Below are positions 34,309-63,040 of a stretch of DNA of 64,000 nt, in pieces; within the stretch, counting starts at the first letter, position 1, and each line of letters opens with the position of its first letter. A model generated the notes under the pieces. It did no database searches, was not told the origin of the DNA, and saw nothing but the letters and a program-made list of their open reading frames with translations. Source of the DNA: Trichormus variabilis 0441 (GTDB lineage: Bacteria; Cyanobacteriota; Cyanobacteriia; Cyanobacteriales; Nostocaceae). Location: contig NZ_CP047242.1 in assembly GCF_009856605.1 (NCBI RefSeq), positions 1,176,001-1,240,000 on the forward strand, read 5' to 3'. A program made the position numbers and the translations under genes.

Positions 34309-34332
34309 ACACTTTATCGGTCGATTTAACGT
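34309..34332. promoter_or_regulatory. 24-bp palindrome, site 1
   Basis: ACACTTTATC-GGTC-GATTTAACGT. Located 148 bases before the GST start and 103 before the racemase-like start. One of ten aligned sites in the island. Confidence 0.65.
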
Positions 34333-34434
34333 AATTTAAATATTATACGGTCTTTCAAAAAATATGTATACCTAATTATTAGTGTACCTAAATAAATGTT
34401 TAGACATAATCAGGCTGATCAAGAAAGAGGTATC

Positions 34435-35187
34435 ATGATGTACTCGAAAGCTGACTCTAATAGGCAGATCCGTCTTGGCTTGCTAGTCCCAGCAGGTAAC
34501 ACCACATTTGAGCCTGACTTTCACGCTGCTTTTTCCAGTCAAGTCAGCATTCATAGCCATCGTGTGATTGCTAAACACCTGCATGCCTATGAGAGCTATG
34601 AATCAATGGATGACATTAATGAAGAGGCTGTCAAAGAAGTAAGTAAACTAGCTAAAGCCAGAGTGCATTTTGGAGCATACGGTTTCACAACAGCAACATT
34701 TTACCGAGGGCGAGTTTTTGCTGAACAATTACGACAACGTTTGACACAGGCGCTAGGAGTACCCGTTGTTATTCCGGCTCTAGCTCTATTAGAAGCATTG
34801 CTACATCTCCAGGTGAAGAAAATTTCTGTAGTCACTCCTTATCCAGACTGGAACAACCAAACGCTAAAAACATTTTTAAATGAAGCACCTTTGGAAATAA
34901 TTACGTTTAAAGGTGATGAACGCCCAAAAGAAGTAGCAAAAACTAATTACCTTTGGCATCAGTCGCCGGATGAAGCCGCAGCTTTTATCAAAGAAGTATC
35001 TCACCAAGGTGCAGACGCTATTGTGTTGCCCTGTACAGCATGGAGAACATTTGAAGTAATAGAAGAATTAGAAGCAGATTTAAATATCCCCGTAGTTACG
35101 GCAAACCAAGCCACAATATGGAGTTTGGCAAGACGAGCTGCTATTGAATCTTCACTTTGCCCCAGGGGAACACTGTTTAATATTTAG
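34435..35187 (+). CDS. Asp/Glu-racemase / maleate isomerase / AMDase-like protein
   Basis: About 250 residues from ATG 34435, which follows GAAAGAGG; an earlier ATG at 34396 lacks a ribosome site. LGLLVPAGNTTFEPDF and VVTPYPDWNNQTLK fit the maleate cis-trans isomerase/arylmalonate decarboxylase branch. The second catalytic cysteine is present (C200 in IVLPCTAWRT), but the first is replaced by F84 in GAYGFTTATF. Arylmalonate decarboxylases also keep only the second cysteine, so a racemase reaction is unlikely. The true substrate is unknown. Confidence 0.8.
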   Translation: MMYSKADSNRQIRLGLLVPAGNTTFEPDFHAAFSSQVSIHSHRVIAKHLHAYESYESMDDINEEAVKEVSKLAKARVHFGAYGFTTATFYRGRVFAEQLRQRLTQALGVPVVIPALALLEALLHLQVKKISVVTPYPDWNNQTLKTFLNEAPLEIITFKGDERPKEVAKTNYLWHQSPDEAAAFIKEVSHQGADAIVLPCTAWRTFEVIEELEADLNIPVVTANQATIWSLARRAAIESSLCPRGTLFNI

Positions 35188-35360
35188 TCACAGATAAACA
35201 ACGAATTGATGTCAACCATAGTCGATCCTGTCATCGACAAAGCTTGTCCAGCAAAGTAGAGGCGATAATTACGCGACCTCAAAACAGGTAGCTCAAGATT
35301 CAACTTGAATCCAAATTTAGATAATAATTTCATGAACTTAAGTACAAAATTTCACAAGTA

Positions 35361-35475
35361 AAGACTCTGCGCCCCTCCGCGCTGACTTTGTGTACCTCTG
35401 CGTTTAAAACTTGTTGCAACGCAAAGAAACACAGAGATTAGCGCAAAAGTACGCAGAGGGTTTCTCAAGATAATT
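35361..35475. repeat. Inverted repeat of CTCTGCG/CGCAGAG type
   Basis: AGACTCTGCGCCCCTCCGCG, TACCTCTGCGTTTAAAAC, then AACGCAAAGAAACACAGAG and GTACGCAGAGGGTTTCTC. Related fragments occur at about 44800-44825, 53945-53960 and 56745-56760. It lies between convergent genes. Confidence 0.7.
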
Positions 35476-35492
35476 GGCTATTGCCGCAAAAA

Positions 35493-37100
35493 TTACACTG
35501 TTACTAATTCCTGGGTTGCAACTAATGACTCAGGTTTTACCCAAATCTTATCCAACCCACCACTAAGGAGCCGATATTGCTGGTTGGGATCTTGTTGCGG
35601 GTAATCCATGCGTTTGTGCATTCCTCTAGTTTCTTGACGTTGCAAGCCACTGTTGTACATCCAACGAGCAGTAGCTACCATTGCCGCAGCTTCCCGCGAT
35701 CGCACAATTTGCTGATCATCTGGTGTATGACTGTTGCGGATTTCTTGCCAGAGGTCATCTAGCCTTTCTAGGGATGCGCTTAAACTGGTAGCAGTGCGGA
35801 AAAGGTTGCGATCGTAGGGGAAAACTTCAGCTTGAGTTGAGGCGATCGCTTCATCTGGTGAAAATGTACCATTACCTTCACCATGTAATCCCGCTTCCCC
35901 CACACCCTGTACACTGCGTTGACTAGCGTATTCACCCAAACTCAACGCATAATTAGCAGCAGATTGTCCAGACCAATAGCCAGAAGACATTGCCCAAGCT
36001 GCATTATGACTACCTCCACCCGTAAAGCCACCACAAATTAATTCTCTAGTAGCCGCATCTCCTGCCGCATAAAGTCCATTCACTGAGGTAGCACAGGTAT
36101 AATCTGCAATCCTAATTCCACCAGTACCGCGCACAGTTCCTTCCAAACGCAGAGTTACAGGGAATCTTTGCGTAAAGGGGTCAATCCCAGCGCGATCAAA
36201 AGGAACAAAGAAGTTAGGCTGAGATGCGCGCATCCAGGCTTTTGTTTGCTCATCCATGTTTTGATCCAGACACGCATAAACTGGCTGAGTCAGCAATGTT
36301 TTGGCAATCACAGAACGACCATGCTTAGAACCTGCACCCTCAATTACCGTCCCATCTTCGTATGTGAAAGAAGCCCAATCATAATAACGAGTCTTCGTTA
36401 CAGAAGAAAAAGCCGGGGAAATTGCATAGGCATTAGAAAATTCCATACCAGAGAAATCAGCACCCGCCTCAGCCGCCATCAATAAACCGTCCCCTGTCAG
36501 AACATTGCAACCAAGTGCCTTACTCAAGAAAGCACAGCCACCTGTAGCAATCACAACCGCCTTGGATCGGACTGTCCAACGTTCCCCAGATTGACGATTG
36601 ATACCCTTAGCCCCAGCCACAGAGCCTTCTATATCTACCAACAACTCTAAAGCCGGACTGTGGTCTAAAATTTTTACACCTGCTTGTTTAATTTTTCTCC
36701 GCATAAACCGCATATAATCCGGCCCTTGCAAGGAGCGACGGATCACCTTTCCATCAGCATCCACACTGAAAGGATAACCCTCATCTGCCAGAGAGTTAAT
36801 GTTGTCATAGGTGCGATCTAAGACCCTAGTCATCCAATGACGATCCGCCAGAAAGCCTCCCATCGCTTCCCGACTCGCCATTGCAGCTTCTCGCTGTTCT
36901 GGATCTGGTGGAACATACCATACACCATTTCCAGAGGCGGCGGCTGCACCACTTGTACCGCAGTAACCCTTGTCTACTAAAACAACTTTTGCCCCACTGG
37001 TTGCAGCACTCCAAGCAGCCCAAGTACCAGCCGGTCCACCACCAATGATTAATACATCGGTAATTAAATCTATATGAGAAACATCTTGACGGATATTCAT
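35493..37100 (-). CDS. AprA-like FAD flavoprotein, module 1
   Basis: 535 residues. DVLIIGGGPAGTWAAWSAA binds FAD; GTSGAAAASGNGVW, GGCAFLSKALGCNVLTGDGLLMA, EGTVRGTGGIRIADYTCATSVNGLYAAGDAA and the terminal segment RQETRGMHKRMDYP follow the layout of the fumarate reductase/APS reductase alpha family. It lies 34 bases after a ferredoxin gene of AprB type. A second copy of the module, in reversed order, is at 44832-46877. A dissimilatory sulfate role is unlikely in a cyanobacterium; oxidation or reduction of an organic sulfur compound is inferred from context. Confidence 0.85.
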   Translation of the reverse strand: MNIRQDVSHIDLITDVLIIGGGPAGTWAAWSAATSGAKVVLVDKGYCGTSGAAAASGNGVWYVPPDPEQREAAMASREAMGGFLADRHWMTRVLDRTYDNINSLADEGYPFSVDADGKVIRRSLQGPDYMRFMRRKIKQAGVKILDHSPALELLVDIEGSVAGAKGINRQSGERWTVRSKAVVIATGGCAFLSKALGCNVLTGDGLLMAAEAGADFSGMEFSNAYAISPAFSSVTKTRYYDWASFTYEDGTVIEGAGSKHGRSVIAKTLLTQPVYACLDQNMDEQTKAWMRASQPNFFVPFDRAGIDPFTQRFPVTLRLEGTVRGTGGIRIADYTCATSVNGLYAAGDAATRELICGGFTGGGSHNAAWAMSSGYWSGQSAANYALSLGEYASQRSVQGVGEAGLHGEGNGTFSPDEAIASTQAEVFPYDRNLFRTATSLSASLERLDDLWQEIRNSHTPDDQQIVRSREAAAMVATARWMYNSGLQRQETRGMHKRMDYPQQDPNQQYRLLSGGLDKIWVKPESLVATQELVTV

Positions 37101-37134
37101 GAAATTTACTCCTTAGATATAGTAAGCAGATTTG

Positions 37135-37431
37135 TCATTTTTTAGTAGCCGATGTGCGCTCTTTACCCCAGCCGACATTTTTTCGATAACTGCCAAGTAA
37201 CCCAGATGCGATCAAAGCTTCTTCATCCACTGGTACTGATTCCTCAGCGTTAGGATCAACATACAGTGCATCTACAGGACAGTACAGTTCGCACATATAA
37301 CAGGTTTGACAATCGCTCTGGCGAGAAATTTTCGGCGCACTCCCTGGTACTGCATCGAACACATTGGTAGGACAAGCAGTAACGCAAAGATTACATTTAA
37401 TACACCGTGATTCACTGACTAATTCAATCAC
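37135..37431 (-). CDS. 2[4Fe-4S] ferredoxin, module 1
   Basis: 98 residues with a GTG start. Two full clusters: C10-C13-C16-C20P and C41-C44-C47-C51P. The layout and tail (VDEEALIASGLLGSYRKNVGWGKER) equal those of the ferredoxin at 46536. GAGGGAG lies upstream. It should feed electrons to the flavoprotein encoded next. Confidence 0.9.
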   Translation of the reverse strand: MIELVSESRCIKCNLCVTACPTNVFDAVPGSAPKISRQSDCQTCYMCELYCPVDALYVDPNAEESVPVDEEALIASGLLGSYRKNVGWGKERTSATKK

Positions 37432-37623
37432 ATTGCTACTAACTCCCTCTTGACAACACCTTTAGCAAGTCATTGCTCTGACACTCACAAGCTCTCACTC
37501 CTGAATTTATAAAGAGGAGTATTGTTAAGTCCGCCAGACATAACTAGCCCAATTCATCCGTGCATAAGTTTTAGAAGACCTGAAAGGCTTATTTATCAGG
37601 TAATACAAAGACCGCATACAAAT

Positions 37624-37647
37624 ACTAATCACCGACCGATTTATCGG
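37624..37647. promoter_or_regulatory. 24-bp palindrome, site 2
   Basis: ACTAATCACC-GACC-GATTTATCGG; on the other strand its centre matches the AAATCGGTCGG of site 5. About 190 bases upstream of the ferredoxin gene. The left arm is degenerate. Confidence 0.5.
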
Positions 37648-37960
37648 AGATTGACTTAGCAGTATTGCACGGTGCTAGAGAAAATTCAAGTCTTTCGCCA
37701 TTAAAATATATGATTAACTAAATTTATTAAATGCTAACAGTTAGTAAAGCTAAGCTTAATTTGATACTTCGTACTTGATTTGGATGCGTAGGCCGTCGTA
37801 GACATCGCTCAAACCTACCTTAACATTCTCCGTCAACCCCCCAGTGCTTGGACATAGGAAATAGAATTGCGTCCTTGGGGAGAAAAATCTTGAACAAGAA
37901 TTAGTATCATTCCTACTTGATTTTTATAGTTGTTTGTGAGAAAGTCTATTTTAATAAAAT

Positions 37961-37984
37961 ACAGTAAATCGATAGATTTATTGT
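37961..37984. promoter_or_regulatory. 24-bp palindrome, site 3
   Basis: ACAGTAAATC-GATA-GATTTATTGT, with arms matching at nine of ten positions. It lies 530 bases before the 38515 gene and the same distance from the ferredoxin gene. Confidence 0.65.
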
Positions 37985-40673: not shown

Positions 40674-40872
40674 TTGCGATCGCATCCCTAATCTAATGAA
40701 TTGATTGAGTGATTGGTGCAAAATTTATTTTCACGAACAAATTGTCAGCATTTTTCTCAACCGTCGTCTTGCCAGGTTCCTGCTAACAGTACTTTTTACT
40801 GTTCATGCTAATGGATCAGTGAAGCAAAATCTCATCCGAAAATTTTATTTCCTCACAATAGAGATTCATCCT

Positions 40873-42693
40873 ATGCAACCCGATCACGATTTTGATCAAG
40901 CTTCTCAAGAGCAGAATGAAACAACAAATCCTCAATCTCGTAGTAGTGGAAAAAGACGTGGTAGACTTTTTGGGCGAGACGGTGTTAGTAGACGTTTATT
41001 TCTTGGTCACGCTGGTTTGTTTACTGCTACTAGCGTTGTGACTGGGATGATCGGTTCGTCTTTCTCAGGTTCCAAACAGGGAGATATTGCACAAGCTAGA
41101 GAAATTGCTCAGGGTAGATATCGTGTTCGAGATTTTAACTATATAAAATTTCGTCAGCAAGCCTTTCAAGTCCGTCTCCAAGCAGCGCAAAATAATCGGC
41201 AAATTGATATCCCACCCCATCCTACCAATGGCGATGAGGAACGCTATGCCAACAAAATTGCTACAGACACGAGGGGATTACCACACGATCAAAGAGGCGA
41301 AGTTGATCTGCAAGCTTATGATTCTTTGATTAGGGCATTAACAACACAGAACCCAGATGATTACGAAAGGATTATTTTGGGTGGTACAAGGAAGTTAGTG
41401 AATCCTCAAGGGCCGTTGGCAATTAGTTTAGAAGGCATCAATGCTTCTCAGATAGCAGTTCCACCGCCACCAACCCTAAATAGTGCAGAACAAGCGGCAG
41501 AGGCGATTGAACTCTACTGGCAGGCTTTATTAAGGGATGTGCCTTTCAGTCGATTTGCTCAAGATCCGAATGTCGCCGCAGCGATCGCCGAACTTAATAG
41601 CCTACCGGAGTTCCGGGGGCCAAAACAGAACGGTTTTGTCACTCCGCAAACTTTATTTCGTGGTAGCGTTATCTATGTTGATCAGCGCGATCGCTCAGGT
41701 AGGACAACAAAATACGTTACTCCTCCAGGAGTGCTAGATGGCCCCCACATTTCCCAATTTCTGTTACGGGAAATTCCTTACAATACTCAATTCATTTCAC
41801 CCTTGATTCGTACTGCTCTAGCTGGTAAGGAGAATGATTTTCTCACTAATTACAATGAATGGCTAACTGTCCAGAATGGAGGTAGTTCTGGCAAGTCCAT
41901 TAAGTTCGATCCCACACGCCGTTTTGTTTTTACTGTTCGTGATCTGAGCGAACTATCACGTATTGGTGGGGCTTTGTTCTTTGGAGCTTTGTTAATTCTC
42001 AATAGCATTAGCGCACCGTTAAATCCAGGAAATCCCTATATCAACTCCAAAACTCAAGTTGGTTCTGCTGCTACCTTTGCATCGGCACATTTTCAAGCCT
42101 TACTCAACTTAGCTCCCTCGCGGGCAATCAGAGCTTCTTATTGGCAAAAGTTTTACGTACATCGACGTTTACGACCAGAAGCTTATGGTGGATTGGTTTA
42201 TAACAACATTGTCAATGGAACTAGTTATCCGATTAATTCCCAAGTCTTCAATTCCACAGCCTTAGCTCGCACCTTCAGCACTTTTGGTACTTATTTGTTA
42301 CCCCATGCGTACCCAGAAGGCGCACCATTCCACTCTTCTTACACTGGTGGTGCTGCTTCGATTGCGGGTGTGCAAGCTACGTTGTTGAAAGCCTTTTTTA
42401 ATGAGAATTTTGTGATTCCCAATCCTGTAGAACCTGATCCCAATGACCCCACCAAACTAATTCCCTACAGTGGCCCAGCTTTGACAGTCGGTGGTGAGTT
42501 GAATAAACTGGCGACGAACTATTACATCGGTCGTGGTCATGGCGGTATTCATTGGCGTTCCGATGGTGCAGCTGGCTTAGCGTTAGGTGAGGAAGTTGCT
42601 ATCAGTATTCTTAGAGATGAAAGACTGGGATACAACGAACGGTTTAATGGTTTTACCTTCACCAAATTTGACGGTACAAGAGTGACTGTCTAA
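40873..42693 (+). CDS. Vanadium-haloperoxidase-like protein with altered PSGH loop
   Basis: 606 residues from ATG 40873 (MQPDHDFDQASQ); the longer frame is not credible. A Tat motif SRRLFLGHAG near residue 40 means export. Vanadate-pocket residues: K426 and R434P (YWQKFYVHRRLRP), R554 and H560 in GRGHGGIHWRSD (R-x5-H-x3-D, intact). In characterised bromoperoxidases the loop reads THPSYPSGHA. Here it is FHSSYTGGAA, so the first His is kept (H487) but Ser-Gly-His becomes Gly-Gly-Ala (G492-A494). The acid-base His is missing. It may use another substrate, or be a phosphatase or inactive relative. Confidence 0.85.
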   Translation: MQPDHDFDQASQEQNETTNPQSRSSGKRRGRLFGRDGVSRRLFLGHAGLFTATSVVTGMIGSSFSGSKQGDIAQAREIAQGRYRVRDFNYIKFRQQAFQVRLQAAQNNRQIDIPPHPTNGDEERYANKIATDTRGLPHDQRGEVDLQAYDSLIRALTTQNPDDYERIILGGTRKLVNPQGPLAISLEGINASQIAVPPPPTLNSAEQAAEAIELYWQALLRDVPFSRFAQDPNVAAAIAELNSLPEFRGPKQNGFVTPQTLFRGSVIYVDQRDRSGRTTKYVTPPGVLDGPHISQFLLREIPYNTQFISPLIRTALAGKENDFLTNYNEWLTVQNGGSSGKSIKFDPTRRFVFTVRDLSELSRIGGALFFGALLILNSISAPLNPGNPYINSKTQVGSAATFASAHFQALLNLAPSRAIRASYWQKFYVHRRLRPEAYGGLVYNNIVNGTSYPINSQVFNSTALARTFSTFGTYLLPHAYPEGAPFHSSYTGGAASIAGVQATLLKAFFNENFVIPNPVEPDPNDPTKLIPYSGPALTVGGELNKLATNYYIGRGHGGIHWRSDGAAGLALGEEVAISILRDERLGYNERFNGFTFTKFDGTRVTV

Positions 42694-42818: not shown

Positions 42819-42842
42819 ACAGTTACTTGATAGATTAACCGT
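42819..42842. promoter_or_regulatory. 24-bp palindrome, site 4
   Basis: ACAGTTACTT-GATA-GATTAACCGT, 43 bases before the methyltransferase start, in the promoter of a four-gene operon. Confidence 0.65.
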
Positions 42843-44831: not shown

Positions 44832-46523
44832 ATGCTCGAATTTAGCAAAGCTCAAATTTATCAGGAGGGAAGGAAATTGCTAACAGCCTATAGGGAAGAT
44901 GAACTACAACTGAGCGCTGATGTATTGGTAATTGGCGGAGGCCCTGCCGCAGCATGGGCAGCCTGGTCAGCCGCATCCCAAGGAGCCAAAGTCATCATTG
45001 TTGATAAAGGTTTTCTGGGTACGAGTGGTGCGGCGGCGGCCAGTGGTAACGGCATCATGGCTCCTTCTCCAGAGAATTGGGAGAAAGTTGGAGCCGAGCG
45101 TTATCGCATCGGGAAAAACCTCGCTAACTTACGTTGGATTGAACGGGTTATCGAAAAAACTTGGCTGAGTTTGCCTCTGGTGGAAAGTTGGGGCTATCGT
45201 TTCCCTAAAGAAGATGGGGAATCTGTGCGTCAGAGTTATTATGGCCCTGAATATATGCGGGTGCTTCGCAAAAACCTCTTGCGTGTTGGTGTGCAGATTC
45301 TTGATCAAAGTCCTGCCTTAGAGCTTTTATTAGCTGATGACGGCTCGGTGGCAGGTGCAAAAGGTGTACAGAGACAACATCATCGTAGTTATACCGTTCG
45401 TGCTGGTGCAGTAGTCTTGGCTAATGGCGGTTGTGCATTCTTGAGCAAGGCGTTAGGTTGCAATACTAATACAGGTGATGGACTGCTGATGGCAGTAGAA
45501 GCTGGTGGTGAACTCTCTAGTATGGAAGCTTCTAATCACTATGCCATCTCGACGGCTTTTAATGCGACGGTAACTAGAGGTGTTCCCTTTGGTTGGGCTA
45601 GTTATAGCGATGAAGCAGGTAATGATCTCGGTGGTTATGCCAATGGTCGTCGTGATCCTTCTTTCCTACCTAATGCCCTGCTCAAAGGCTCCGTTTATGC
45701 TCGTTTAGATCGAGCTACGCCTGAAGTTAAGGCAGTGATTGAAAAATCTCATTTCATCGCTTTTCTACCTTATAAAAAAGCTGGTATTGACCCCTATACA
45801 GAACGAGTGCCTGTGACACTGGTTCTGGAAGGGACAGTCCGTGGGACAGGTGGAATCAGGATTGTGGATGATACTTGTGCTACAAAGGTTCCTGGCTTAT
45901 ATGCGGCGGGTGATGCAGCATCGCGGGAGTTTTTAGCCGGTTTAGCTTCTGGGGGTGGCGGCCCCAATGCTGCCTGGGCAATCTCGACAGGGCAATGGGC
46001 AGGAGCAGGGGCAGCTGCTTTTGCCAAGAGTTTGGGCGCTCATCCTCATGAACGGGTGGCGCGTCCGGCTGGTCAAGTGGGATTGCGCTCATCTTCTCCT
46101 ACTTCCGCAACATTCGATAACGAGGCGATTGTGCATGGTGTACAAGCCCAGATGTTTCCGTTGGAGAAGAATTACTTGCGGTCTGAGCAAGGACTTTTAG
46201 ATTCCCTTGCTAAATTAGAAACGCTGTGGCAGCAAGTAAAAGGAAACCCCAAACAAGATACAGTCCGTGATGTAGAATTTTCTCGTCGAGCAGCAGCTCT
46301 GACGGCTGTAGCACGATGGGCATATTTTAGCGCGTTAAACCGCGAGGAAACACGCAGCGAACATATTCGCATAGATTATCCCGAAACCGATCCAAATCAG
46401 CGTTATTACCAAGCTACAGGCGGTTTAGATAAGCTTTGGGTGAGGCGTGATTGGATTACGGATGCTCCTACTAAACAACCAGTAATCACTACTCCCACCA
46501 CATCATCTGTATCAAAGTTATAG
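44832..46523 (+). CDS. AprA-like FAD flavoprotein, module 2
   Basis: 563 residues, paralogue of 35493-37100. DVLVIGGGPAAAWAAWSAASQ, GTSGAAAASGNG, GGCAFLSKALGCNTNTGDGLLMAV, EGTVRGTGGIRIVDDTCATK and AGDAASREFLAG match the APS-reductase/fumarate-reductase flavoprotein family. It has an N-terminal extension of about 20 residues relative to module 1. Third gene of a probable operon; the ferredoxin gene follows after 12 bases. The role in sulfur-compound redox is inferred. Confidence 0.87.
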   Translation: MLEFSKAQIYQEGRKLLTAYREDELQLSADVLVIGGGPAAAWAAWSAASQGAKVIIVDKGFLGTSGAAAASGNGIMAPSPENWEKVGAERYRIGKNLANLRWIERVIEKTWLSLPLVESWGYRFPKEDGESVRQSYYGPEYMRVLRKNLLRVGVQILDQSPALELLLADDGSVAGAKGVQRQHHRSYTVRAGAVVLANGGCAFLSKALGCNTNTGDGLLMAVEAGGELSSMEASNHYAISTAFNATVTRGVPFGWASYSDEAGNDLGGYANGRRDPSFLPNALLKGSVYARLDRATPEVKAVIEKSHFIAFLPYKKAGIDPYTERVPVTLVLEGTVRGTGGIRIVDDTCATKVPGLYAAGDAASREFLAGLASGGGGPNAAWAISTGQWAGAGAAAFAKSLGAHPHERVARPAGQVGLRSSSPTSATFDNEAIVHGVQAQMFPLEKNYLRSEQGLLDSLAKLETLWQQVKGNPKQDTVRDVEFSRRAAALTAVARWAYFSALNREETRSEHIRIDYPETDPNQRYYQATGGLDKLWVRRDWITDAPTKQPVITTPTTSSVSKL

Positions 46524-46535
46524 CAGGAGCAGGTC

Positions 46536-46877
46536 ATGATTGAGCTTGTCAGCCATAAACTCTGTATCAATTGCAATTTGTGCGTCCAAGTTTGTCCTAC
46601 TAATGTCTTTGACTCTGTACCTGACCAACCACCCATAATCGCCCGCAAGGAAGACTGTCAAACTTGTTTTATGTGTGAGGCATATTGTCCTGCGGATGCG
46701 CTCTATGTTGCACCCCAATCTCATACAGATATGGAAATCAATGAGGATGATTTAATTGAAAGTGGCATCATGGGTGAATATCGTCGCCTCTTAGGCTGGG
46801 GATATGGTAGAAAAAGCAATAGTGAATTGGATACAGCTCATAAACTGCGCCAATTACCCCGTCCTTATCAAAGTTAA
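46536..46877 (+). CDS. 2[4Fe-4S] ferredoxin, module 2
   Basis: 113 residues, MIELVSHKLCINCNLCVQVC. Two clusters: C10, C13, C16, C20 and C41, C44, C47, C51. The tail is longer than in the 37135 paralogue. The start is 12 bases after the flavoprotein stop, preceded by AGGAGCAGG. Electron partner of that flavoprotein. Confidence 0.92.
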   Translation: MIELVSHKLCINCNLCVQVCPTNVFDSVPDQPPIIARKEDCQTCFMCEAYCPADALYVAPQSHTDMEINEDDLIESGIMGEYRRLLGWGYGRKSNSELDTAHKLRQLPRPYQS

Positions 46878-48046: not shown

Positions 48047-48070
48047 CTGGTAATTTGATTGATTTACCGT
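48047..48070. promoter_or_regulatory. 24-bp palindrome, site 5
   Basis: CTGGTAATTT-GATT-GATTTACCGT, placed between the divergent oxygenase (start 47906) and aldo/keto reductase (start 48175) genes. Confidence 0.65.
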
Positions 48071-50564: not shown

Positions 50565-51405
50565 AGAAATAGTCTCCTTGCTTTTGCAGTAGGTAATGTG
50601 GCTGACTTAATTAGCAAGGTAACCCTTTATTTTTGGGAAAGCAATAGTTTCTAAATTTCTAGTAATTTGAAGGCCGCTATATCTATGTACTTGACGTAAA
50701 TTACTCGGCTTGCCAATATTTCATGAGCTTACCATTGGCTACAATCCTCATTAATTAAGGACTTGGACTATTCTGTTAGTTACAACGCACTACTTTGTTG
50801 AAGTTCAGGTATCCCTTAATATGCAAAATTTCCCATCCGTTGATTTGATTTGTCATCTTCCTAAATCAAAAAAAGTTGACAAACAATATCTTTTTCATTT
50901 ACTAGCTGTTTCAGCCTGAAACCCTTATATAGTAAAGATTATAGCTATATAAATCATTGAGGTAAATGATTATTTGAAAAAAAGCTATAAGTACATTTTC
51001 CTATAGCTCCTTAATGTCATAGTTTCATGACTTTGAGGCGAAAGCTGAAAATAACTTCATATCTAAATTTCTTTACATAATAGACTTGCCTTTTATTGTT
51101 AACCATGCAACACTGCTATATTATCATTAAACTACTTAACTTCTACCGACTAACAGGAGTTAGTTCTAGGAAATCTTGTTACTACTAAAATAGTTATTTT
51201 GTAAAAGTGCTTACAGAGTAAGGTTTTAAGGTTAAGTAGACTCAACAAGAATTAAATAAAAGTAGCGTTGATTGATAAATCTTGCTTGTTTGTAACACTC
51301 ATAATCCCAAAGTTTTAGCCATAGTAATCCTCTCATCGGTTGCGTAAGGTGGTTTATCCACCTTATTTACTTAATTTTACATTTTGAAATATTTGGTTCT
51401 AAAAA
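50565..51405. other. Long gap with palindromes
   Basis: About 840 AT-rich bases. They contain AATCATT-GAGGTA-AATGATT near 50955, GTCAT-AGTTTC-ATGAC near 51020 and a weak relative of the 24-bp palindrome at 51264-51287 (about 15 of 24 consensus matches), upstream of the third SsuA-like gene. No gene visible. Confidence 0.4.
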
Positions 51406-52657: not shown

Positions 52658-52894
52658 TATTATGTCTAGTCTACACTTACGTTAAGCTAATGCGCGCCTT
52701 AATTGCATAACTACTAATCAGGCCTGTTAACTATCAACGGTCAACAGCTTTCACGATGGATTGTGCAACTTGCTAATTTAGGAACATTGTATTATTGTCA
52801 AGCATTTGACGAAATTAGACAATATGCCATACAATCTACAGTAAGCACATCAAGTTACTGTTGTTTACTCATTTGGTTGAAGGGAAAAATCGAA

Positions 52895-53972: not shown

Positions 53973-55223
53973 TCAGGCGGTAATACCATAAACCCAACTC
54001 TGCTGTTGAGACGACGACACAGCATCTTGATAAACTTGCCCAAATAATACTCGCTGTGCATGACTCCCGCCAATTTCATGCAGACGCGACAAAACAGGCT
54101 GGAGTTCTGCAACGGTTGTATGAAAATCTCCTTGGGCATGAGCTACCATACCCCTGGCGGCGGGTAGGGTTATTTCTAACCAACGCCGTCGTTGGAAAGG
54201 ATTAATACTCAAGGCGTGATACTGCATACTCAAAAGCATTTGCTTTACCCAATCATGGTGTCCCGCTTTGGCGAGTGCATAGACATAATGCAAGTCTTGA
54301 AATGGTAAAGCGTGTTCATCAATGCGACTGTAAAGATAAGGACTGATACCTTGCCAACGGTTGCCCACATCTACACCGTGTAATTCCAGCCGCAATAATA
54401 AGGAAATTGCTCCTACTTGGTCTTTGGGGGATTGTTTATTAGCACGTCTCCAAATGTGCGTATCATACAGGTTAAGAACTTCTCGATAGTTTTCTAACTG
54501 CAAATAATATAGGGCAATGTGCCACCAGTTATGAGTGTAGAGCATAGAGTTGCAGTTCTCCCAGGTATCTGCAAAACTCTCCATCCAAGCTATTCCCTCA
54601 TCAACTCTTTTCTGTGTTTCCATAACATGAGCGATCGCATGATGCGCCCAAGGATCATACCTATTTATGGCGATCGCTTGATAAGCCATGTTTTCTGCTG
54701 CTTCAAGTTGGTGACACTGTTCTAAACCAAAGGCCGCCATGCCATATAAATAATGATTTTCCGGATTGCTAGGTAAAACCTTTTGGGCAATTTGCCATAA
54801 TTTTTCTTTGTCACCCAAATAAAAATAGTGATATTGTCCCTGCTGCACAGAAATCAAATCACAGGGGGATTTATCGGTGATTTCTTCATGAATAGCAATT
54901 GCTACCTCAATCTCTTGATTTGCCCAGGCGGAAATTGCTTGTATATATAATTGTTCTCTGGCAGTAGCTTTGGCGAAATGCTGTTGTGCTGTTCGCAGAT
55001 ATGGTTGAGCTTGCTGCCAAGATTTACGGTTTTCTTGGGTGAGATAATAAGCAGCAGCATAAGCATGAGCTAATGCACAAGTGGGATCTGCTGCAATTGC
55101 TTGTAAAATTGCTGTCTCTGCATCACTACCATAACCCAACATCTGCTGGGTAAAACGGTTAATGGCTGCGATCGCTTTGGCTGAATCTGTGGTTACTACT
55201 AGCCCTTGTGCATCTTTAAGCAT
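53973..55223 (-). CDS. TPR protein, TTC38 family
   Basis: 416 residues, repeated helical pairs resembling TTC38: AINRFTQQMLGYGSDAETAILQAIAADPTCALAHAYAAAYYL, HHAIAHVMETQKRVDEGIAWMESF, THNWWHIALYYLQLENYREVLNLYD. Cytoplasmic by sequence, function unknown. Divergent from ssuD with two 24-bp palindromes between them, so likely in the same regulon. Confidence 0.85.
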   Translation of the reverse strand: MLKDAQGLVVTTDSAKAIAAINRFTQQMLGYGSDAETAILQAIAADPTCALAHAYAAAYYLTQENRKSWQQAQPYLRTAQQHFAKATAREQLYIQAISAWANQEIEVAIAIHEEITDKSPCDLISVQQGQYHYFYLGDKEKLWQIAQKVLPSNPENHYLYGMAAFGLEQCHQLEAAENMAYQAIAINRYDPWAHHAIAHVMETQKRVDEGIAWMESFADTWENCNSMLYTHNWWHIALYYLQLENYREVLNLYDTHIWRRANKQSPKDQVGAISLLLRLELHGVDVGNRWQGISPYLYSRIDEHALPFQDLHYVYALAKAGHHDWVKQMLLSMQYHALSINPFQRRRWLEITLPAARGMVAHAQGDFHTTVAELQPVLSRLHEIGGSHAQRVLFGQVYQDAVSSSQQQSWVYGITA

Positions 55224-55289: not shown

Positions 55290-55313
55290 ACAGTAAATCG
55301 GTCGGATTAGCGT
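55290..55313. promoter_or_regulatory. 24-bp palindrome, site 6
   Basis: ACAGTAAATC-GGTC-GGATTAGCGT, 67 bases before the TPR gene. Confidence 0.65.
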
Positions 55314-55456
55314 TCTTATGACCAAGAGTATGCCACACTCACTACAAAACCGCAAGCATTAAACTACTTAAAGTTGATAGGATAACCGGACTTAATTCTA
55401 TCAAAGTCTTGATTTACCTCATGGGCTGTGCGATAGTCTGATAGTATTTTATTAAT

Positions 55457-55480
55457 ACGGTAGCTCGATAGATTTACCGT
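55457..55480. promoter_or_regulatory. 24-bp palindrome, site 7
   Basis: ACGGTAGCTC-GATA-GATTTACCGT, 39 bases before ssuD. A half-site ACAGTAAATC follows at 55490-55499. Confidence 0.7.
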
Positions 55481-55518: not shown

Positions 55519-56664
55519 ATGCAGCTACATTGGTTTATTCCCACTCACGGTGAAGGACGCTATCTAGGTACTGCCATAGGCGGGCGCGTAGTCAACTTTG
55601 ATTACTGGCGGCAGATTGCTCAAGCTGTAGATCACTTAGGTTTTACAGGTGCATTATTACCTACAGGCCGTTCTTGTGAAGATGCTTGGATTTTGGCATC
55701 AACCTTGGTAACACACACCAAACAGATGAAATTTTTGGTGGCGATACGTCCGGGGTTGATGTCACCGGGAGTTGCAGCCAGAATGGCAGCAACTTTTGAT
55801 CGCATTTCTGGAGGACGTTTGCTAATTAACGTCGTTACAGGTGGTGATCCAGTGGAATTGGCAGGGGATGGATTGCATCTTACCCATGACGATCGCTACA
55901 GACTAACAGATGAATTTTTGGCAGTGTGGCGGGAGATTGCTGCCGGAGAAACCGCTAACTTCCAGGGCGATTATCTCAATATTCAAGACGGCAAGCTGTT
56001 ATTTCCCCCAGTCCAGAAACCTCATCCACCTCTGTGGTTTGGCGGTTCTTCCCCCATTGCTCAAGAAATCGCTGCCAAACACGTAGATGTATATTTAACT
56101 TGGGGCGAACCACCAGAACAAGTTGCCCAAAAGATTGCCTCTGTACGCCGACTAGCAGCAGCACAAGGAAGAACATTAAGTTTTGGGATTCGTCTCCATG
56201 TCATTGTCCGGGAGACTGAAAGCCAGGCTTGGGATGCAGCCAACAATTTAATTCGCTACGTAGATGATTCGGCGATCGCCCAAGCCCAACAAGCATACTC
56301 TCGCATGGATTCCGAAGGACAACGCCGGATGAAAGAATTACACAACGGCAGTCGAGAAGCTTTAGAAATTAGCCCGAATTTATGGGCGGGAATTGGTTTA
56401 GTGCGCGGCGGTGCGGGGACTGCCTTAGTTGGTGACCCCGATACAGTAGCTCAAAGAATGCTGGAATATCAAAAATTAGGTATCGATACCTTTATCTTCT
56501 CCGGTTATCCCCATCTAGAAGAAGCCTATCGAGTAGCAGAGTTACTCTTTCCACGGTTACCCCTACAGCATCAACCAACAGTAGCACCACAACTATTGAG
56601 TCCCTTTGGCGAAGTTGTAGCCAACCAAGACTTCCCTAAACAGCAAATCGCCACTGTAGATTAA
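55519..56664 (+). CDS. ssuD: FMNH2-dependent alkanesulfonate monooxygenase
   Basis: 381 residues, family-typical length. [64 protein letters not shown] and [17 protein letters not shown] are SsuD blocks of the luciferase-like fold. It cleaves the C-S bond of alkanesulfonates, releasing sulfite, with reduced flavin from a partner reductase. No ssuE-like reductase gene is nearby. Two palindromes and a half-site lie in its promoter, arguing for sulfur-dependent control. Confidence 0.93.
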
Positions 56665-56781: not shown

Positions 56782-57501
56782 TTAAATTCCTGCACCATCC
56801 AAAAACTCTTCAATGACTAAATTACTCTCAGCTTTAGTCTCTTGGAGGTGTTGATTGTCCACCTGGTTGATGGATACATGAAAATTACCTCCTAACTGTT
56901 CTACCTGCTGTTCTAAATCCTTCACACGTTCAAAGAGGGCGCGGATAGCCTCTGCTTCCATATCACGGACTTTTCCATGGGCTAAAACATGAGCTTGATC
57001 AACCCGAATCAAACGCCCTGGAACGCCTACGACTGTCGTATTGCTGGGAACATCGCGCAAAACTACTGAACCTGCACCAATACGAACGTTGTTACCAATG
57101 TGAATATTACCTAATACTTTTGCACCCGCTCCTACAACTACATTCTCACCCAATGTAGGATGACGCTTACCGCTTTCCTTTCCTGTGCCGCCAAGGGTAA
57201 CACCTTGATAAATCAGTGCATAATCACCAACAATGGCGGTTTCACCAATAACTACACCCATACCGTGGTCAATAAATACGCCTTTACCAATCTTTGCACC
57301 AGGGTGAATTTCAATTCCTGTCAAAAATCGACTGATACTCGAAATCAATCGTGGAAATAAGGGAATTCCAATCTTATACAACCAATGGGTAAGGCGATGA
57401 AACATCAAGGCTTGAAGGCCAGGATAACAAAATAAAATTTCTAGCCAATTACGGGCTGCGGGATCGCGTTCATAAATTGTGCGTAAGTCAGTTAAAAGCA
57501 T
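56782..57501 (-). CDS. cysE: Serine O-acetyltransferase
   Basis: 239 residues. The helical N-domain is followed by a left-handed hexapeptide helix: [53 protein letters not shown]. It makes O-acetylserine, the carbon donor for cysteine. Shorter than E. coli CysE (273) at the N-terminus. The C-terminal extension includes a coiled stretch ([21 protein letters not shown]). Divergent from rrf2-cysK across two palindromes. Confidence 0.95.
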
Positions 57502-57636: not shown

Positions 57637-57660
57637 ACGGTAAGCTGATAGACTTATAGT
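57637..57660. promoter_or_regulatory. 24-bp palindrome, site 8
   Basis: ACGGTAAGCT-GATA-GACTTATAGT, between cysE and rrf2; 136 bases from cysE. Confidence 0.65.
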
Positions 57661-57728: not shown

Positions 57729-57752
57729 ACAATAAGTCTATCAATTAACAGT
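57729..57752. promoter_or_regulatory. 24-bp palindrome, site 9 (autoregulatory position)
   Basis: ACAATAAGTC-TATC-AATTAACAGT, the reverse complement of ACTGTTAATT-GATA-GACTTATTGT. It ends three bases before the rrf2 start, so bound protein would block its own expression. Confidence 0.65.
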
Positions 57753-57755: not shown

Positions 57756-58226
57756 ATGATGACGCAGAGCTTAAAAAAACAAAACTATACCCTATTGGAT
57801 CTGTCTGCCAAAGTGGAATATGCACTATTGGCACTTTTAGAACTAGCTAACCAATATGTTCAAAAAACACCCACAACCATGAGTGACATCTCTGCTAAGC
57901 ATCCGATTCCAGAGCGCTATCTAGAGCAGATTCTTTCTAGTTTGCGGCGGGCTGGCGTGGTGCAGAGTCAACGCGGTTCTAGAGGTGGCTTTGTTTTGAC
58001 CCGTGAACCTCGGCAATTGACCTTGTTAGAGGTCGTAATTATGTTGGATGGAGAGCAAAAAGAAAAAGAATCCCCTTCTGAAGAAAATTTAGAAAAAAGC
58101 TTGGTGTGCGAGATTTGGCAACAAGCGGATGTAGCTGCACAAAATATTTTGAGCCAATATACTATCCAAGACTTGTGTGACCAACGAGAAGCACGTTTAC
58201 AGAAAGGTCAGATGTATTACATTTAG
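57756..58226 (+). CDS. Rrf2-family transcriptional regulator, CymR-like
   Basis: 156 residues; ATG 57756 or 57759. The winged helix reads LSAKVEYALLALLELANQY to LEQILSSLRRAGVVQSQRGSRGGFVLTREP. There are only two cysteines (C118, C141), not the three clustered ones of IscR, so an Fe-S cluster of IscR type is unlikely. This and cysK 18 bases downstream resemble Bacillus CymR, which represses sulfur genes in complex with CysK. Best candidate for binding the 24-bp palindrome, two copies of which lie upstream. Confidence 0.9.
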   Translation: MMTQSLKKQNYTLLDLSAKVEYALLALLELANQYVQKTPTTMSDISAKHPIPERYLEQILSSLRRAGVVQSQRGSRGGFVLTREPRQLTLLEVVIMLDGEQKEKESPSEENLEKSLVCEIWQQADVAAQNILSQYTIQDLCDQREARLQKGQMYYI

Positions 58227-58244
58227 CGATATAAGAATACTGTT

Positions 58245-59207
58245 ATGAAAATTGCCAGAAATATTACAGAGCTAGTTGGACGCACGCCATTGGTGCGGTT
58301 AAATAATATTCCTCAAGCAGAGGGATCTGTAGCCGATATAGTGGTGAAGTTAGAAAGCATGAACCCATCTGCGTCGGTGAAAGACAGAATTGGCGTAAGT
58401 ATGGTGGAAAGTGCAGAAGAGGCAGGTCTAATTCATCCAGGTAAGACAATATTAGTAGAACCAACTTCAGGAAATACGGGTATTGCTTTGGCAATGGTGG
58501 CTGCTGCTAAAGGCTATCATTTGATTCTGACCATGCCGGAGACGATGAGTACAGAAAGACGGTCGATGTTGCGAGCTTATGGCGCACAGTTGGAATTAAC
58601 TCCAGGTCTGGAAGGGATGCGGGGAGCGATCGCCAGAGCCGAGCAGATTGTAACAGAATTGCCTAATGCCTATATGTTGCAACAGTTCCGTAACCCAGCG
58701 AATCCCAAAGTACATCGTCAAACTACTGCTGAAGAAATTTGGTCAGATACCGATGGACAGGTAGATATTGTGGTGGGTGGAGTCGGGACTGGCGGAACAT
58801 TAACTGGAGTCGCTCAGGTACTTAAAGAACGTAAACCCAGTTTTCAAGCTATTGCTGTAGAACCAAGCAATAGCCAAGTGCTTTCCGGAGGAAAATCAGG
58901 AGCGCATAAAATTCAAGGTATCGGTGCAGGATTTATCCCGGCAATTTGTCGTCTGGAATTGATTGATCAGATAATTGCCGTTTCGGATGAGGATGCGATC
59001 GCCTATAGTCGCAGATTAGCAAGAGAAGAAGGTTTATTATCAGGTATCTCTACAGGTGCAGCGTTGTATGCAGCTATTCAGGTGGCAAAGCGTCCAGAAA
59101 ATAGCGGTAAGTTGATTGTTATGGTTCAACCTAGTTTTGGCGAACGCTATTTGAGTACCACGTTGTTCAAGGATTTATCAGAGTTGGAAATATCTGCACT
59201 CAATTAA
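58245..59207 (+). CDS. cysK: Cysteine synthase A (O-acetylserine thiol-lyase)
   Basis: 320 residues. PLP lysine in [12 protein letters not shown] (about residue 46), substrate loop [14 protein letters not shown] and PLP phosphate loop [28 protein letters not shown] is typical of CysK. Makes cysteine from O-acetylserine and sulfide. Cotranscribed with rrf2 and faces cysE, so substrate supply, synthesis and control are together. Confidence 0.95.
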
Positions 59208-59728: not shown

Positions 59729-60031
59729 GAGATATATTTATTTATTTGCTTCTCAAGTAATTTTAATATTTCATCTATTTTACAAAATTAAGCTGACATT
59801 TTTTAGGAAATCAATAAAGATTTCTCTAACAAAAATAGTAATCAAATTAATTGATTAACTTAGAGATTTTAATAAATGGTTTCTATCAAAAATTGGGCAT
59901 TACTGAATATGAGGAGGAAAATTAATAACTCATCAAGTATGATTGTATTGCGATGCAGAGAGAAAACACCCGCAAAGATATGATGCGCGCGATTCATATT
60001 GTGATTCAGTAAAGCCAACTTTTTACTAGCA

Positions 60032-60832
60032 TTAGCGTTTAAAAATTATGTCGTACAGCGACAGGAGAATTTCCACCACAATCAAAATCACCACATACCA
60101 TTCTACTCGCTGGCTACTGCTATGCTGCATGAACTCCAGCACAGTTTGTGCAGTTTGAGAAATTAGCTCTAGTTTTCGTTCCAAAGCATTATGACGCTCA
60201 CGGATTTCATATTCATCTTCCAAACGCAGATATAAGTTTTCTAGTTGTGGTGATTCCCATAGCAATTCCGGCTTATCGATAATTTCTACTCGACCCACAA
60301 TTTTATGTTGAACTAACAGGGTAGCTCCAAGTTGACGCAATAATTCCCGACTTTTGCGTTGACTCCTATTGTCACCCTGGAGACTAGCCGCGAACGGTTC
60401 AATTTGATCAAATACAGTTGCTAGACTCGTTTCATAGTGAGATAGAACAACACTCTTAGCAAGAATATCAGCCACTATCTGTAAACGTTCTACGCTAAAT
60501 TCATGCAGGAAAATTTTCCCTTCTTTAACTCTTTCACTTTCCGCAATATTGCGGCGAACATCTACCTCTTCTGTTTCCGGTTCAGTAAAAGAATCACTAA
60601 CTAGAGAGGATAGTTTGCTCAAAAATGCTACCTTTTCCATAGGCTCAAGGTTGAACAAAACAACTGCACCATAACTCAGAAGCACAGCACAACCTTGTTC
60701 ACCTACGGTAACTATTAATGGCATAGTCGCCAAGCAATCATAATTCTCCAATCTTTGTAGGTTAATTTTCTTACCAAGGAATAGGGCTTGCGCTTTAAAG
60801 CTATCTTTGCCGTGAAAAAGGAGTTTTTGCAT
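60032..60832 (-). CDS. RMD1/DUF155 family protein
   Basis: 266 residues. The DUF155 core is seen in EQGCAVLLSYGAVVLFNLE, LPLIVTV-like start, FAASLQGDNRSQRKSRELLRQLG and LEDEYEIRERHNALERKLELISQTAQTVLEFMQ. A single membrane segment lies at the end (WYVVILIVVEILLSLYDI), making a tail-anchored protein. Eukaryotic relatives are mitochondrial RMD1. Role unknown. Confidence 0.88.
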   Translation of the reverse strand: MQKLLFHGKDSFKAQALFLGKKINLQRLENYDCLATMPLIVTVGEQGCAVLLSYGAVVLFNLEPMEKVAFLSKLSSLVSDSFTEPETEEVDVRRNIAESERVKEGKIFLHEFSVERLQIVADILAKSVVLSHYETSLATVFDQIEPFAASLQGDNRSQRKSRELLRQLGATLLVQHKIVGRVEIIDKPELLWESPQLENLYLRLEDEYEIRERHNALERKLELISQTAQTVLEFMQHSSSQRVEWYVVILIVVEILLSLYDIIFKR

Positions 60833-61281
60833 TGTCGCCTGACACTATATTTTTGTCCATCAAGGGAATACCAGGAAATAAATTATCCCATCTTGTGATG
60901 CGATTAAGATGCCTGCTACTCATCACAGACAAGTAGGATATCCATCCTAGAATAAATTTTGGGACTTTTTTATGGAGAATTCCCTCTATGGCTATAGATT
61001 TTCTAGTAGATTACTAGCCAGTTGTAGTGGAGCGATGACCGAGTACTGTAAATTGGTTGCTGCGTGACTTTACAGCATAGGGTCAACAACTGGCGATTTG
61101 TTGCGGCTGTTCCGCTCTCTTGATATCTCATTTAAACTGGAAAATATAGATAAGTTATGCCAAATTGCCAAAATCTTTGAAGTCCGTCATAAATTGACAA
61201 CAAAAGAGCCGGAAGAATTCCGACTCTTTATTTCTGTGCAATGTTTTAGCTGAACAGACCTATTCAATTCCTACCAGTCAC
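60833..61281. other. Gap with stem-loops
   Basis: It contains a wide inverted pair CCAGTTGT (61018-61025) and ACAACTGG (61086-61093), within which GTAAA/TTTAC could also pair, and the terminator at 61203-61229. This could be a small RNA, but nothing identifies it. Confidence 0.4.
61203..61229 (-). terminator. Terminator of the 61282-61905 gene
   Basis: On the minus strand AAAGAGTCGG, loop, CCGGCTCTTT, then TTGTTGTC. One mismatch in a 10-bp stem. Confidence 0.75.
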
Positions 61282-61905
61282 TTAATCTTCGATTTTCGCT
61301 GTGGTAACTCCTGCATCTAGTGCGGCTTGAGAATTTTCGGGAATAAACCAGTTAACTTCGCCAGATTGGAAAACCTTTGCAGGTGGAAGATTGAATTCAA
61401 TTTCACTAGTTTGGGGGTTGTTTGTAGCAACTAACCTAGTTCCATGAACAATCTTAACAACTTGAGCGGGAGTGGCTGCTTGTTCTGCTGTAGCAGCTTT
61501 TCCAGGAAGATAAACACCTTGACAGTCCCACTCATCATCAGTTTCTGCACCACTAGGAAGCAGATATAATTCATTGTCGTAGGTCGAGGTAGATTTTTTC
61601 GGTTTTTCACCGTATATCAATAGTGTTTTATCTGTTTCATTGCGACAAATTCCCACAGGTTCTTCACTATTTTCTATAATGTATTTTTGGTATTGCAAGT
61701 TAGAAATTCTTTGCTCAATTTCTGGTGTTCCCCCTTGGGTTTGTCTATCCTGTAAAGCAGAGTCTAGTGATTTGGTGATTTCTATATAGTCTGGGTCATT
61801 AGCTAATTTCTTTCCTGCCCAAGATGGTGAAGCAACCATCAAGTTGACCAAGAGTAATAAGCAAACTAGCGCGGTTTTGAGTAGAGTATTCTTGAAAATT
61901 TTCAT
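61282..61905 (-). CDS. Exported hypothetical protein
   Basis: 207 residues. The leader MKIFKNTLLKTALVCLLLLVNLMVASPSWAG is a signal peptide ending at AG. The mature part has ICRNETDKTLLIYGEKP, DDEWDCQGVYLPG and a closing FNLPPAKVFQSGEVNWFIPENSQAALDAG. Two cysteines may form a disulfide. Lumenal or periplasmic. No family recognised. It lies between DUF155 and cadD on the same strand. Confidence 0.75.
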   Translation of the reverse strand: MKIFKNTLLKTALVCLLLLVNLMVASPSWAGKKLANDPDYIEITKSLDSALQDRQTQGGTPEIEQRISNLQYQKYIIENSEEPVGICRNETDKTLLIYGEKPKKSTSTYDNELYLLPSGAETDDEWDCQGVYLPGKAATAEQAATPAQVVKIVHGTRLVATNNPQTSEIEFNLPPAKVFQSGEVNWFIPENSQAALDAGVTTAKIED

Positions 61906-62012
61906 GGTTTTCTCCTGAAAAATTAGTGGTTTCGGATGCTAACTACCTAATTGAAGGTATTAATTGAGAATTTTTACATCTATCTAATGATGCAAGTTAC
62001 TAAGATAAAAGC

Positions 62013-62765
62013 TCATTTTTGTTTAATTCCAGGTATAACTTCTGCTTCAGGTGCTTCCAAGGAGAATCTATAATTTACTCGCCAAATATTCTTGCTTAAA
62101 ATTAACAGGTAAGACCCAATGCTTACACAGATTATGAAAAGTAAAATGGGAGTTTCTATCGTTTGGCTTTCTATAAAAATGGAAACACCTAATCCTATTA
62201 AAAGAAAGGGAACTAAAGAATTACCATAGTGGGTAATTGCAGAAGCGATCGCCTTGATCTGAGTTAAGTGATAGGCTAGATAACACCACACACCTACCAT
62301 CACAAAGAAAACTAGCAAAATTACCAGTAAGTTATCCCATGTATTCGTAGCAAACATGGGCATATAGATACTAATGTTGTCACTACCATTCGCAATTGTG
62401 ACTGCTGCTACACCATAGGTTTGGGGTGAAAGAAAATTGTTCCACCAAGACGGCGAAGATTCAAGAGTATTTAAATCCTCTGTGTCGCTAGTCTCTTGAT
62501 TTAGTAAGCGATTGATGCCAATAATTATCGGCGCAATACCCAGTAGACCAATCCAAGACCCTGGGATGATGAATCTGCCAAAGAAGCTAGGCAAACTGGC
62601 AACTACTAAGGCACTAAAACCCAAATACTGACCGATAAATATATGGCGACGGCGAAAACAAGCATTTATTTGTGAGAAAAACAGTGACAGGACGACAATA
62701 TCGTCGAGATTAGTAGCCACAAAAGCCGTGAATCCTGTAGAAATAGCAGTCAGTAGTTCGCTCAT
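62013..62765 (-). CDS. CadD-family cadmium resistance transporter, paralogue 2
   Basis: 250 residues, five to six membrane segments. FVATNLDDIVVLSLFFSQIN and VTIANGSDNISIYMPMF are the two family repeats, matching the paralogue at 32169. It has a longer middle loop and C-tail. The gene is divergent from the LysR gene, with a 24-bp palindrome between them, which puts an ion transporter inside the putative sulfur regulon. Actual substrate uncertain. Confidence 0.88.
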   Translation of the reverse strand: MSELLTAISTGFTAFVATNLDDIVVLSLFFSQINACFRRRHIFIGQYLGFSALVVASLPSFFGRFIIPGSWIGLLGIAPIIIGINRLLNQETSDTEDLNTLESSPSWWNNFLSPQTYGVAAVTIANGSDNISIYMPMFATNTWDNLLVILLVFFVMVGVWCYLAYHLTQIKAIASAITHYGNSLVPFLLIGLGVSIFIESQTIETPILLFIICVSIGSYLLILSKNIWRVNYRFSLEAPEAEVIPGIKQK

Positions 62766-63016
62766 GGGTGCGTTGTGTCTCCTTAATGGTAGTGACCGTC
62801 AAGCATCTGTATGGGTGAAATGGAGGTTGTGAGTGTGGAAAATTGGTAAGTTCAGAAAATCATCAGTGTAGTTAGCACTTTGACTAGAGGTATAGTTTCA
62901 CTCTATGGTTACCTATCAATAAGAGCAAACAGTCTTTTTTGTTAAATCCATAGACTGAATTTATGGATGTGCAGATATGACTGCAACAGTGGAAGTAAAG
63001 ATCATTACAACAATCT

Positions 63017-63040
63017 ACAGTTAGTCGCTAAATTTACCGT
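63017..63040. promoter_or_regulatory. 24-bp palindrome, site 10
   Basis: ACAGTTAGTC-GCTA-AATTTACCGT, 95 bases before the LysR gene and 252 before cadD. Confidence 0.6.

Follow-up and report, generated by a model that had tools for sequence, protein, structure and literature searches.

A 24-bp palindrome family as candidate operator of a sulfur-scavenging regulon in Trichormus variabilis 0441, probably read by an Rrf2-family protein

The ten 24-bp palindromes in the promoter gaps of a sulfur-gene island of Trichormus variabilis 0441 raise the question of which protein reads them, and for which set of genes. The window, i.e., the whole stretch of 64,000 nucleotides that was analysed, corresponds to C1:1176001-1240000 in a genome of 7.1 Mb and five contigs. 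Sulfur sensing and the switch to sulfonates and sulfate esters in Nostoc-type cyanobacteria are little described in the open literature searched. Motif, placement, conservation, gene content and co-occurrence with a clade of Rrf2-family regulators were computed directly. The palindrome probably serves as operator for a sulfur-scavenging regulon that spans the genome, its likely reader being a dimer of the Rrf2 protein encoded at 57756-58226, which would act mainly as a repressor, including of its own gene. The analysis yielded a defined operator together with a candidate for its regulator and a list of predicted targets, all open to direct testing.

The palindrome family and its distribution

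A symmetric ungapped matrix (content 19.8 bits) was built from the ten 24-mers and scored against the 63,977 positions of the window. All ten sites listed in a preliminary description of the locus were present, aligned without gaps and fitted this single matrix, with the 24-base consensus ACnGTAAATC-N4-GATTTACnGT. They ranked 1-9 and 11 among the scored positions, and each site omitted in turn from the matrix still ranked within 2-13; the weakest (37624) scored 15.8 bits, and 9.8 when left out. The arm spacing of four bases was exclusive, with nine sites of at least 16 bits (half-site score) compared to 0 or 1 at every other spacing from 0 to 13. None of the ten overlapped a gene, though only 21.5% of the 30.7-64 kb region was intergenic (0.215^10 = 2e-7), and nine stood between divergent genes, in line with their described placement, the exception (42819) being flanked by two plus-strand genes.

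The preliminary description had found the palindromes only in the 33-64 kb island, which held within the window and failed genome-wide, as sites were also found elsewhere. Its two tentative extensions had to be dropped: the wide-spacer variant at 32918 scored -14 bits at normal spacing (best 10.8 bits with a spacing of 13, where it ranked third in the window), and the weak candidate at 51264 reached 0.5 bits (rank 114). Better additional candidates were obtained at 52838..52861 (16.3 bits), upstream of a phosphonate-binding-domain gene, and at 55366..55389 (13.8 bits), between the sites at 55290 and 55457.

A first search pattern, GTAAATC-N4-GATTTAC with up to three mismatches, was discarded as too loose (733 forward matches vs 393 in the reversed control). 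The tighter 24-base pattern gave 67 matches vs 39 in the control, and its 3-mismatch matches were not trusted singly because the control count was also high. With the matrix, a single position of at least 14 bits, upstream of another SsuA-like gene, was found in 380 kb sampled from this genome (19 stretches), and 3 Mb of first-order Markov sequence yielded five positions of at least 16 bits and none of at least 20 bits.

Outside the window, at least 13 sites reached 20 bits or more, besides the nine inside, and eight of these 13 faced clear sulfur genes, namely those of an SsuC-like permease (95994), an SsuA-like protein with cystathionine enzymes next to it (116576), a dehydrogenase whose gene is followed by those for TauD and a luciferase-type protein (358445), a luciferase-type monooxygenase (1435102), SsuE (2787401), a sulfate-transporter ATPase at 28 bp (3126545), TauD (4353604) and a sulfatase-maturing enzyme adjoining a sulfatase (C1:1443810). 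Of the remaining five, one faced genes for an OprB-type porin and a methyltransferase-like protein (98610), one an aldo/keto reductase (1436941), one a 2-hydroxyacid dehydrogenase next to a pair of sulfatase genes (C1:251913) and one a gene for a 142-amino-acid (142-aa) protein (C1:1242914, 24.3 bits), and one of 20.4 bits (C1:491712) had no clear facing gene. The island continued beyond the window with this site ahead of the 142-aa gene and, just past the window, a 19.7-bit site ahead of a TauE-family gene (C1:1241817). Weaker sites (15-20 bits) were found ahead of an O-acetylhomoserine sulfhydrylase-type gene (1906), a rhodanese (4723), a sulfatase (254713), a Crp-family gene (1881884) and a DUF1932-type gene (6377113). 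Any one site scoring 16-20 bits may be a chance match, since the Markov sequence yielded five per 3 Mb and three such matches fell inside open reading frames (C3:96371, 17.3 bits; C1:815898, 17.2; C1:2482861, 17.0). No good site was found at the sbpA gene of this genome (best 8.8 bits, in the one copy of three that was scored).

Conservation was assessed in 80 named loci gathered by Rrf2 similarity, the closest proteins being from Nostoc species (94% identity), by scoring the 160 bp upstream of rrf2 with permuted matrices as control. The best site scored at least 10 bits in 72 loci (permuted-matrix mean 0.26) and at least 14 bits in 55 (mean 0). At least two sites occurred in 52 loci, usually laid out as in the window, the proximal site lying at -27 and the distal one some 90 bp beyond it. 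A relatives-only matrix placed the ten sites of the window at ranks 1-9 and 11; it was made from 37 loci (35 distinct sites) chosen among those with a -27 site, excluding weaker sites and the -38/-42 registers, and contained none from the window. Sites also preceded relatives of tauE, lysR, the 142-aa gene, cysE, the tetratricopeptide repeat (TPR) gene and others, as well as sbpA in 14 of 30 loci (permuted mean 0.08) and the Crp-family gene in 14 of 20 (0.02); in two of the latter 14 the best site was 257-310 bp away, nearer another gene. Genes were also compared across 14 genomes carrying the Rrf2 clade defined below, at 15 loci chosen by high score, with sites at rrf2 itself excluded. There, 16 of 30 facing genes had a homologue among the motif-facing genes of T. 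variabilis, a larger share than the 20 of 82 among the remaining genes of these loci (p=0.004), and at least one such homologue was found in 11 of the 15 loci.

Taken as far as these partial surveys went, the motif was rare in the sampled background rather than equally common in unrelated intergenic DNA, and sites were kept before orthologous genes in relatives. Along with the sulfur genes found elsewhere in the genome, this strongly supports the earlier proposal of a shared operator marking a sulfur regulon.

Which protein reads the operator

Genes of three regulators, of the Rrf2, LysR and Crp families, carried upstream sites. In the window, rrf2 (57756..58226, plus strand) lies between cysE, coding for serine O-acetyltransferase (56782..57501, minus strand; above the NCBIfam equivalog cut-off), and cysK, coding for cysteine synthase (58245..59207, plus strand), the proposed co-regulator, which follows 18 bp downstream. 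The gap between cysE and rrf2 holds a distal operator (57637..57660, 24.1 bits) and a proximal one (57729..57752, 24.9 bits), whose position is kept in relatives. The proximal operator ends 3 bp ahead of rrf2, and others end 5 bp ahead of crp, 7 bp ahead of the 142-aa gene and 16 bp ahead of a methyltransferase gene; this closeness to the starts suggests repression.

To compare the three regulators, motif load was defined as the number of sequence-model matches per genome in 60 genomes of the family, the T. variabilis genome being excluded from Mann-Whitney tests. These counts are lower bounds, since only 132-150 first-look candidates per genome were scored and known sites (e.g., C1:1242914) were missed; both strands of a palindrome were counted. 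The Rrf2 clade was considered present in 32 genomes with an Rrf2 at least 58% identical, plus three (G009, G022 and G030) added from the tree. Motif load was higher where the clade was present (median 14, 34 genomes) than where it was absent (median 4, 25 genomes; p=3e-8, or 9e-7 without the three added genomes). The clade effect was also found within LysR-negative genomes (median 9.5 in six vs 4 in 23, p=0.001) and within Crp-positive genomes (33 vs 7 genomes, p=0.0009). A tree of 86 Rrf2 proteins split with support 100/98 into clades of 41 and 45. Upstream sites were strong in 34, weak in five and lacking in two members of the first clade, which includes the island protein, while 44 members of the second had none and one had a strong site. 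Outside the family, the first clade was rarer (30 of 292 phylum genomes had a match with E of at most 1e-40, and 20 of these belong to the family), and two of ten first-clade loci there had strong upstream sites.

The Rrf2-family protein appeared to be the best-supported reader of the operator, which it would bind mainly as a repressor. Motif load followed its clade more consistently than it followed LysR or Crp, which are likely targets. The preliminary description had named both Rrf2 and LysR as candidate regulators; the comparison favoured the former and left the latter as a likely target.

Several results weighed against the Rrf2 protein as reader. LysR presence also correlated with motif load (p=2e-7) and added matches within the clade (p=0.02), while LysR-positive genomes showed no significant clade effect (28 vs 2 genomes, p=0.12), and all these p-values are optimistic because the genomes are related. 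No site of at least 14 bits was found at 4 of 31 orthologues (at least 58% identity), nor one of at least 10 bits at 8 of the 80 named loci, and cysK adjoined rrf2 in only 20 of the 31 orthologues. Three genomes lacking the clade nevertheless carried strong sites: G002, also without close LysR or Crp orthologues, had three sites (30.3, 25.7 and 24.8 bits) next to monooxygenase and SsuA-like genes; G004, with LysR, had a 23.7-bit site ahead of lysR; and G053 had a 28.0-bit site ahead of sbpA. The simplest account of these three genomes is that another Rrf2 paralogue shares the operator.

A second Rrf2 gene was indeed present in the T. variabilis genome (C1:4370001-4386000), beside another cysK at C1:4378305; it is widespread in the family and its product also ends in MYYI. 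Second-clade genes lay beside cysK in 33 of 45 cases. The upstream region of the T. variabilis copy contained no copy of the operator (best 4.1 bits). From the similar recognition regions of the two clades, this paralogue may share the operator with the island Rrf2. That it is the actual reader, alone or together with the island protein, which would then be an autoregulated relative of the same specificity, is unlikely, yet it is the strongest of the alternatives. Strong sites in clade-negative genomes, ahead of sbpA, a Cys/Met-enzyme fragment, cysE, the Crp gene and TauD, speak for it. Against it, second-clade genes almost never had an upstream site (the single case among 45 may belong to a divergent TPR gene), and motif load was low in genomes without the first clade.

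The LysR-family gene (63114..64000, plus strand, continuing beyond the window to C1:1240070) faces an operator at 63017..63040 (25.5 bits), shared with a Cad-family transporter gene (62013..62765, minus strand). Escherichia coli Cbl and CysB are LysR-family activators of ssu, tau and cys genes, serving sulfonate and taurine use at sulfate limitation, and their gene set is similar to the one described here, whereas their activator logic and protein family differ from those of the favoured Rrf2 repressor. A LysR activator of this kind as the operator's reader is improbable, even with its own upstream site, the correlation with motif load and the strong site of G004. The six clade-positive genomes without a close LysR exceeded the 23 with neither regulator, and several sites nearly touch start codons, an odd position for an activator. 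In only two genomes was LysR present and the Rrf2 clade absent (2 and 16 matches).

A Crp-family, CysR-like reader (C1:1881919) is more improbable still. CysR regulates sulfate-transporter genes in Synechococcus elongatus (PMC12016511), and the site upstream of the Crp gene itself was frequent, as given above. Crp presence correlated with motif load (p=5e-6); the LysR and Crp correlations arise largely because both genes are carried together with the Rrf2 clade. Without that clade, Crp-positive genomes were no richer in matches (median 2 in seven vs 4 in 18 Crp-negative genomes, p=0.48). To our knowledge, a Crp site so long and with conserved outer bases would be unusual. The T. variabilis gene (C1:1881884-1882503) has an operator 5-11 bp upstream, lies beside cysE in several relatives and is possibly the Nostocales counterpart of CysR. 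That regulator likewise controls sulfur assimilation in cyanobacteria; it belongs to a different protein family from Rrf2, and its likely relative here is a motif-bearing target.

That the palindromes are chance matches, or a dispersed repeat element without regulatory role, was rejected as next to impossible: the genome is AT-rich, a loose pattern gives many matches, some matches fall within reading frames and one site of about 20 bits faces no clear gene, but spacing is strict, placement intergenic, and the distance from orthologous starts fixed and conserved.

A CymR-like protein and its proposed switch

The Rrf2 protein passed the family models of Pfam (110.5 bits, cut-off 30) and NCBIfam (rrf2_super, 107.2 bits, cut-off 73.3). 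Its predicted structure (pLDDT, predicted local distance difference test, 82.6) had Rrf2 proteins as top Foldseek matches, with Bacillus subtilis CymR as the nearest fold, followed by T. potens IscR; by sequence, the first matches were 4cic, 3lwf and CymR 2y75. The C-terminal tail MYYI was found in all 29 orthologues and in 84 of 85 proteins of a wider set, and resembles in sequence the CysK-docking end of CymR. No cysteine was found among the invariant or nearly invariant columns of the 29 orthologues, which makes an iron-sulfur (Fe-S) sensor with conserved ligand cysteines unlikely, and this option was rejected. IscR, NsrR and RirA, whose fold and helix-turn-helix-wing region are similar, have palindromic operators of similar length; they differ in this lack of conserved cysteines and in the targets, here sulfur assimilation.

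Bacillus CymR and CysK repress cysK, ssu and mccAB at low O-acetylserine (PMC3828012), the CymR C-terminus was modelled as an anchor in CysK (PMC11487621), and Ile-ended tails binding CysK are noted in PMC12895370. The CymR/CysK system of B. subtilis and Staphylococcus aureus shares with the present one the Rrf2 fold, the C-terminal Ile tail, a motif-defined regulon with cysK and ssu-type genes, and the link between cysE and cysK. In contrast, the protein did not pass the curated CymR equivalog model (NF047409, 96.2 bits, cut-off 195), and the matrix did not match a CymR operator (-12.2 bits for that of B. subtilis cysK, the only one compared; its shuffles averaged -10.3). The present regulator would also be autoregulated, its motif-facing genes include sulfatases, TauD and the LysR and Crp regulators, and it belongs to a different phylum. 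We propose that it would work like CymR while falling outside the CymR model, as a variant with a different operator. Among the open-licence PMC papers listed by literature searches, none described a sulfur regulon under an Rrf2 or CymR protein in cyanobacteria. In Synechocystis, an Rrf2 regulator studied by Midorikawa in 2009 is reportedly required for psaAB expression.

The gene order, in which cysK follows rrf2 after 18 bp and cysE lies on the far side of the operator region that it shares with rrf2, fits a CymR/CysK-type circuit, and a CysK/O-acetylserine switch is inferred by analogy with Bacillus CymR. With sufficient cysteine, O-acetylserine would be low and CysK would grip Rrf2 by its MYYI tail, the complex occupying the operators, several of which end almost at the start codon. 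Under sulfur shortage, O-acetylserine made by CysE would accumulate and draw CysK off, and the repressor would depart. This would turn on the genes for uptake and cleavage of sulfonates and sulfate esters, cysE and rrf2-cysK, as well as exporter-like genes, LysR and the Crp-family regulator.

A wider scheme is tentative, and somewhat doubtful as a whole: two Rrf2 paralogues, both with CysK-type tails, might share one operator unlike that of Firmicutes, the widespread copy beside cysK serving core sulfate uptake and the autoregulated copy governing a genome-wide organosulfur regulon and standing above LysR and the Crp/CysR-like regulator, so that CysK and O-acetylserine would form the sensor atop a cascade in filamentous cyanobacteria. 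Should the reading of the operator by the island Rrf2 be confirmed, sensing in the manner of CymR/CysK, so far a Firmicute trait, would reach into cyanobacteria, where it would use a new operator and form a tier above two other regulators.

Other operators and genes of the island

The strongest operator of the window (37961..37984, 30.1 bits) lay between a ferredoxin and an SsuA-type gene, about 530 bp from each, and the weak one (37624..37647) ahead of a ferredoxin/flavin adenine dinucleotide (FAD) oxidoreductase operon. Others were found between a glutathione S-transferase (GST) gene and an Asp/Glu racemase/decarboxylase-like gene (34309..34332, 22.0 bits), 16 bp upstream of a methyltransferase-GST-FAD/ferredoxin operon (42819..42842, 26.5 bits), and between a 2-oxoglutarate-Fe(II) oxygenase and an aldo/keto reductase gene (48047..48070, 20.8 bits). 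Two more lay between divergent genes, one 66 bp upstream of the TPR-like gene (55290..55313, 25.9 bits), the other (55457..55480, 28.6 bits) 38 bp upstream of ssuD, coding for alkanesulfonate monooxygenase (55519..56664, plus strand; above the NCBIfam equivalog cut-off).

The matrix predicts sulfur roles for several uncharacterised genes, namely those of the TPR protein, the 142-aa protein, the FAD/ferredoxin pairs and the DUF1932-type protein. The TPR-like protein (window 53973-55223; L279:876-2126) has 416 aa and no Pfam match, is encoded divergently from ssuD, and its relatives also have an upstream operator. The 142-aa protein (L007:6945-7373) had no NCBIfam match, and its operator, 7 bp upstream here, stood close upstream in several relatives. 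Two pairs of FAD-oxidoreductase and dicluster-ferredoxin genes lie under an operator (window 35493-37431 and 44832-46877), which we take to recall AprAB-type subunits. The DUF1932-type dehydrogenase-like protein (L349:5143-6042, L285:4114-5028) was 69% identical between T. variabilis and G029, with the operator upstream in both.

Two pairs of sulfatase and sulfatase-maturing-enzyme genes near operators (C1:251913-254859 and C1:1443810) suggest sulfate-ester scavenging. Two Cad-family genes were found in the island (32169-32843 and 62013-62765), with a similar third just beyond it (L007:4067-4753), beside LysR and TauE-family genes; they perhaps encode exporters of sulfur compounds rather than cadmium pumps. 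Half-sites of at least 16 bits at spacing 1, perhaps due to chance, occurred at 32994, ahead of the first of these Cad genes. A long open frame (window 40705-42693; 662 aa from TTG) had no Pfam match and, judged by eye, may be haloperoxidase-like.

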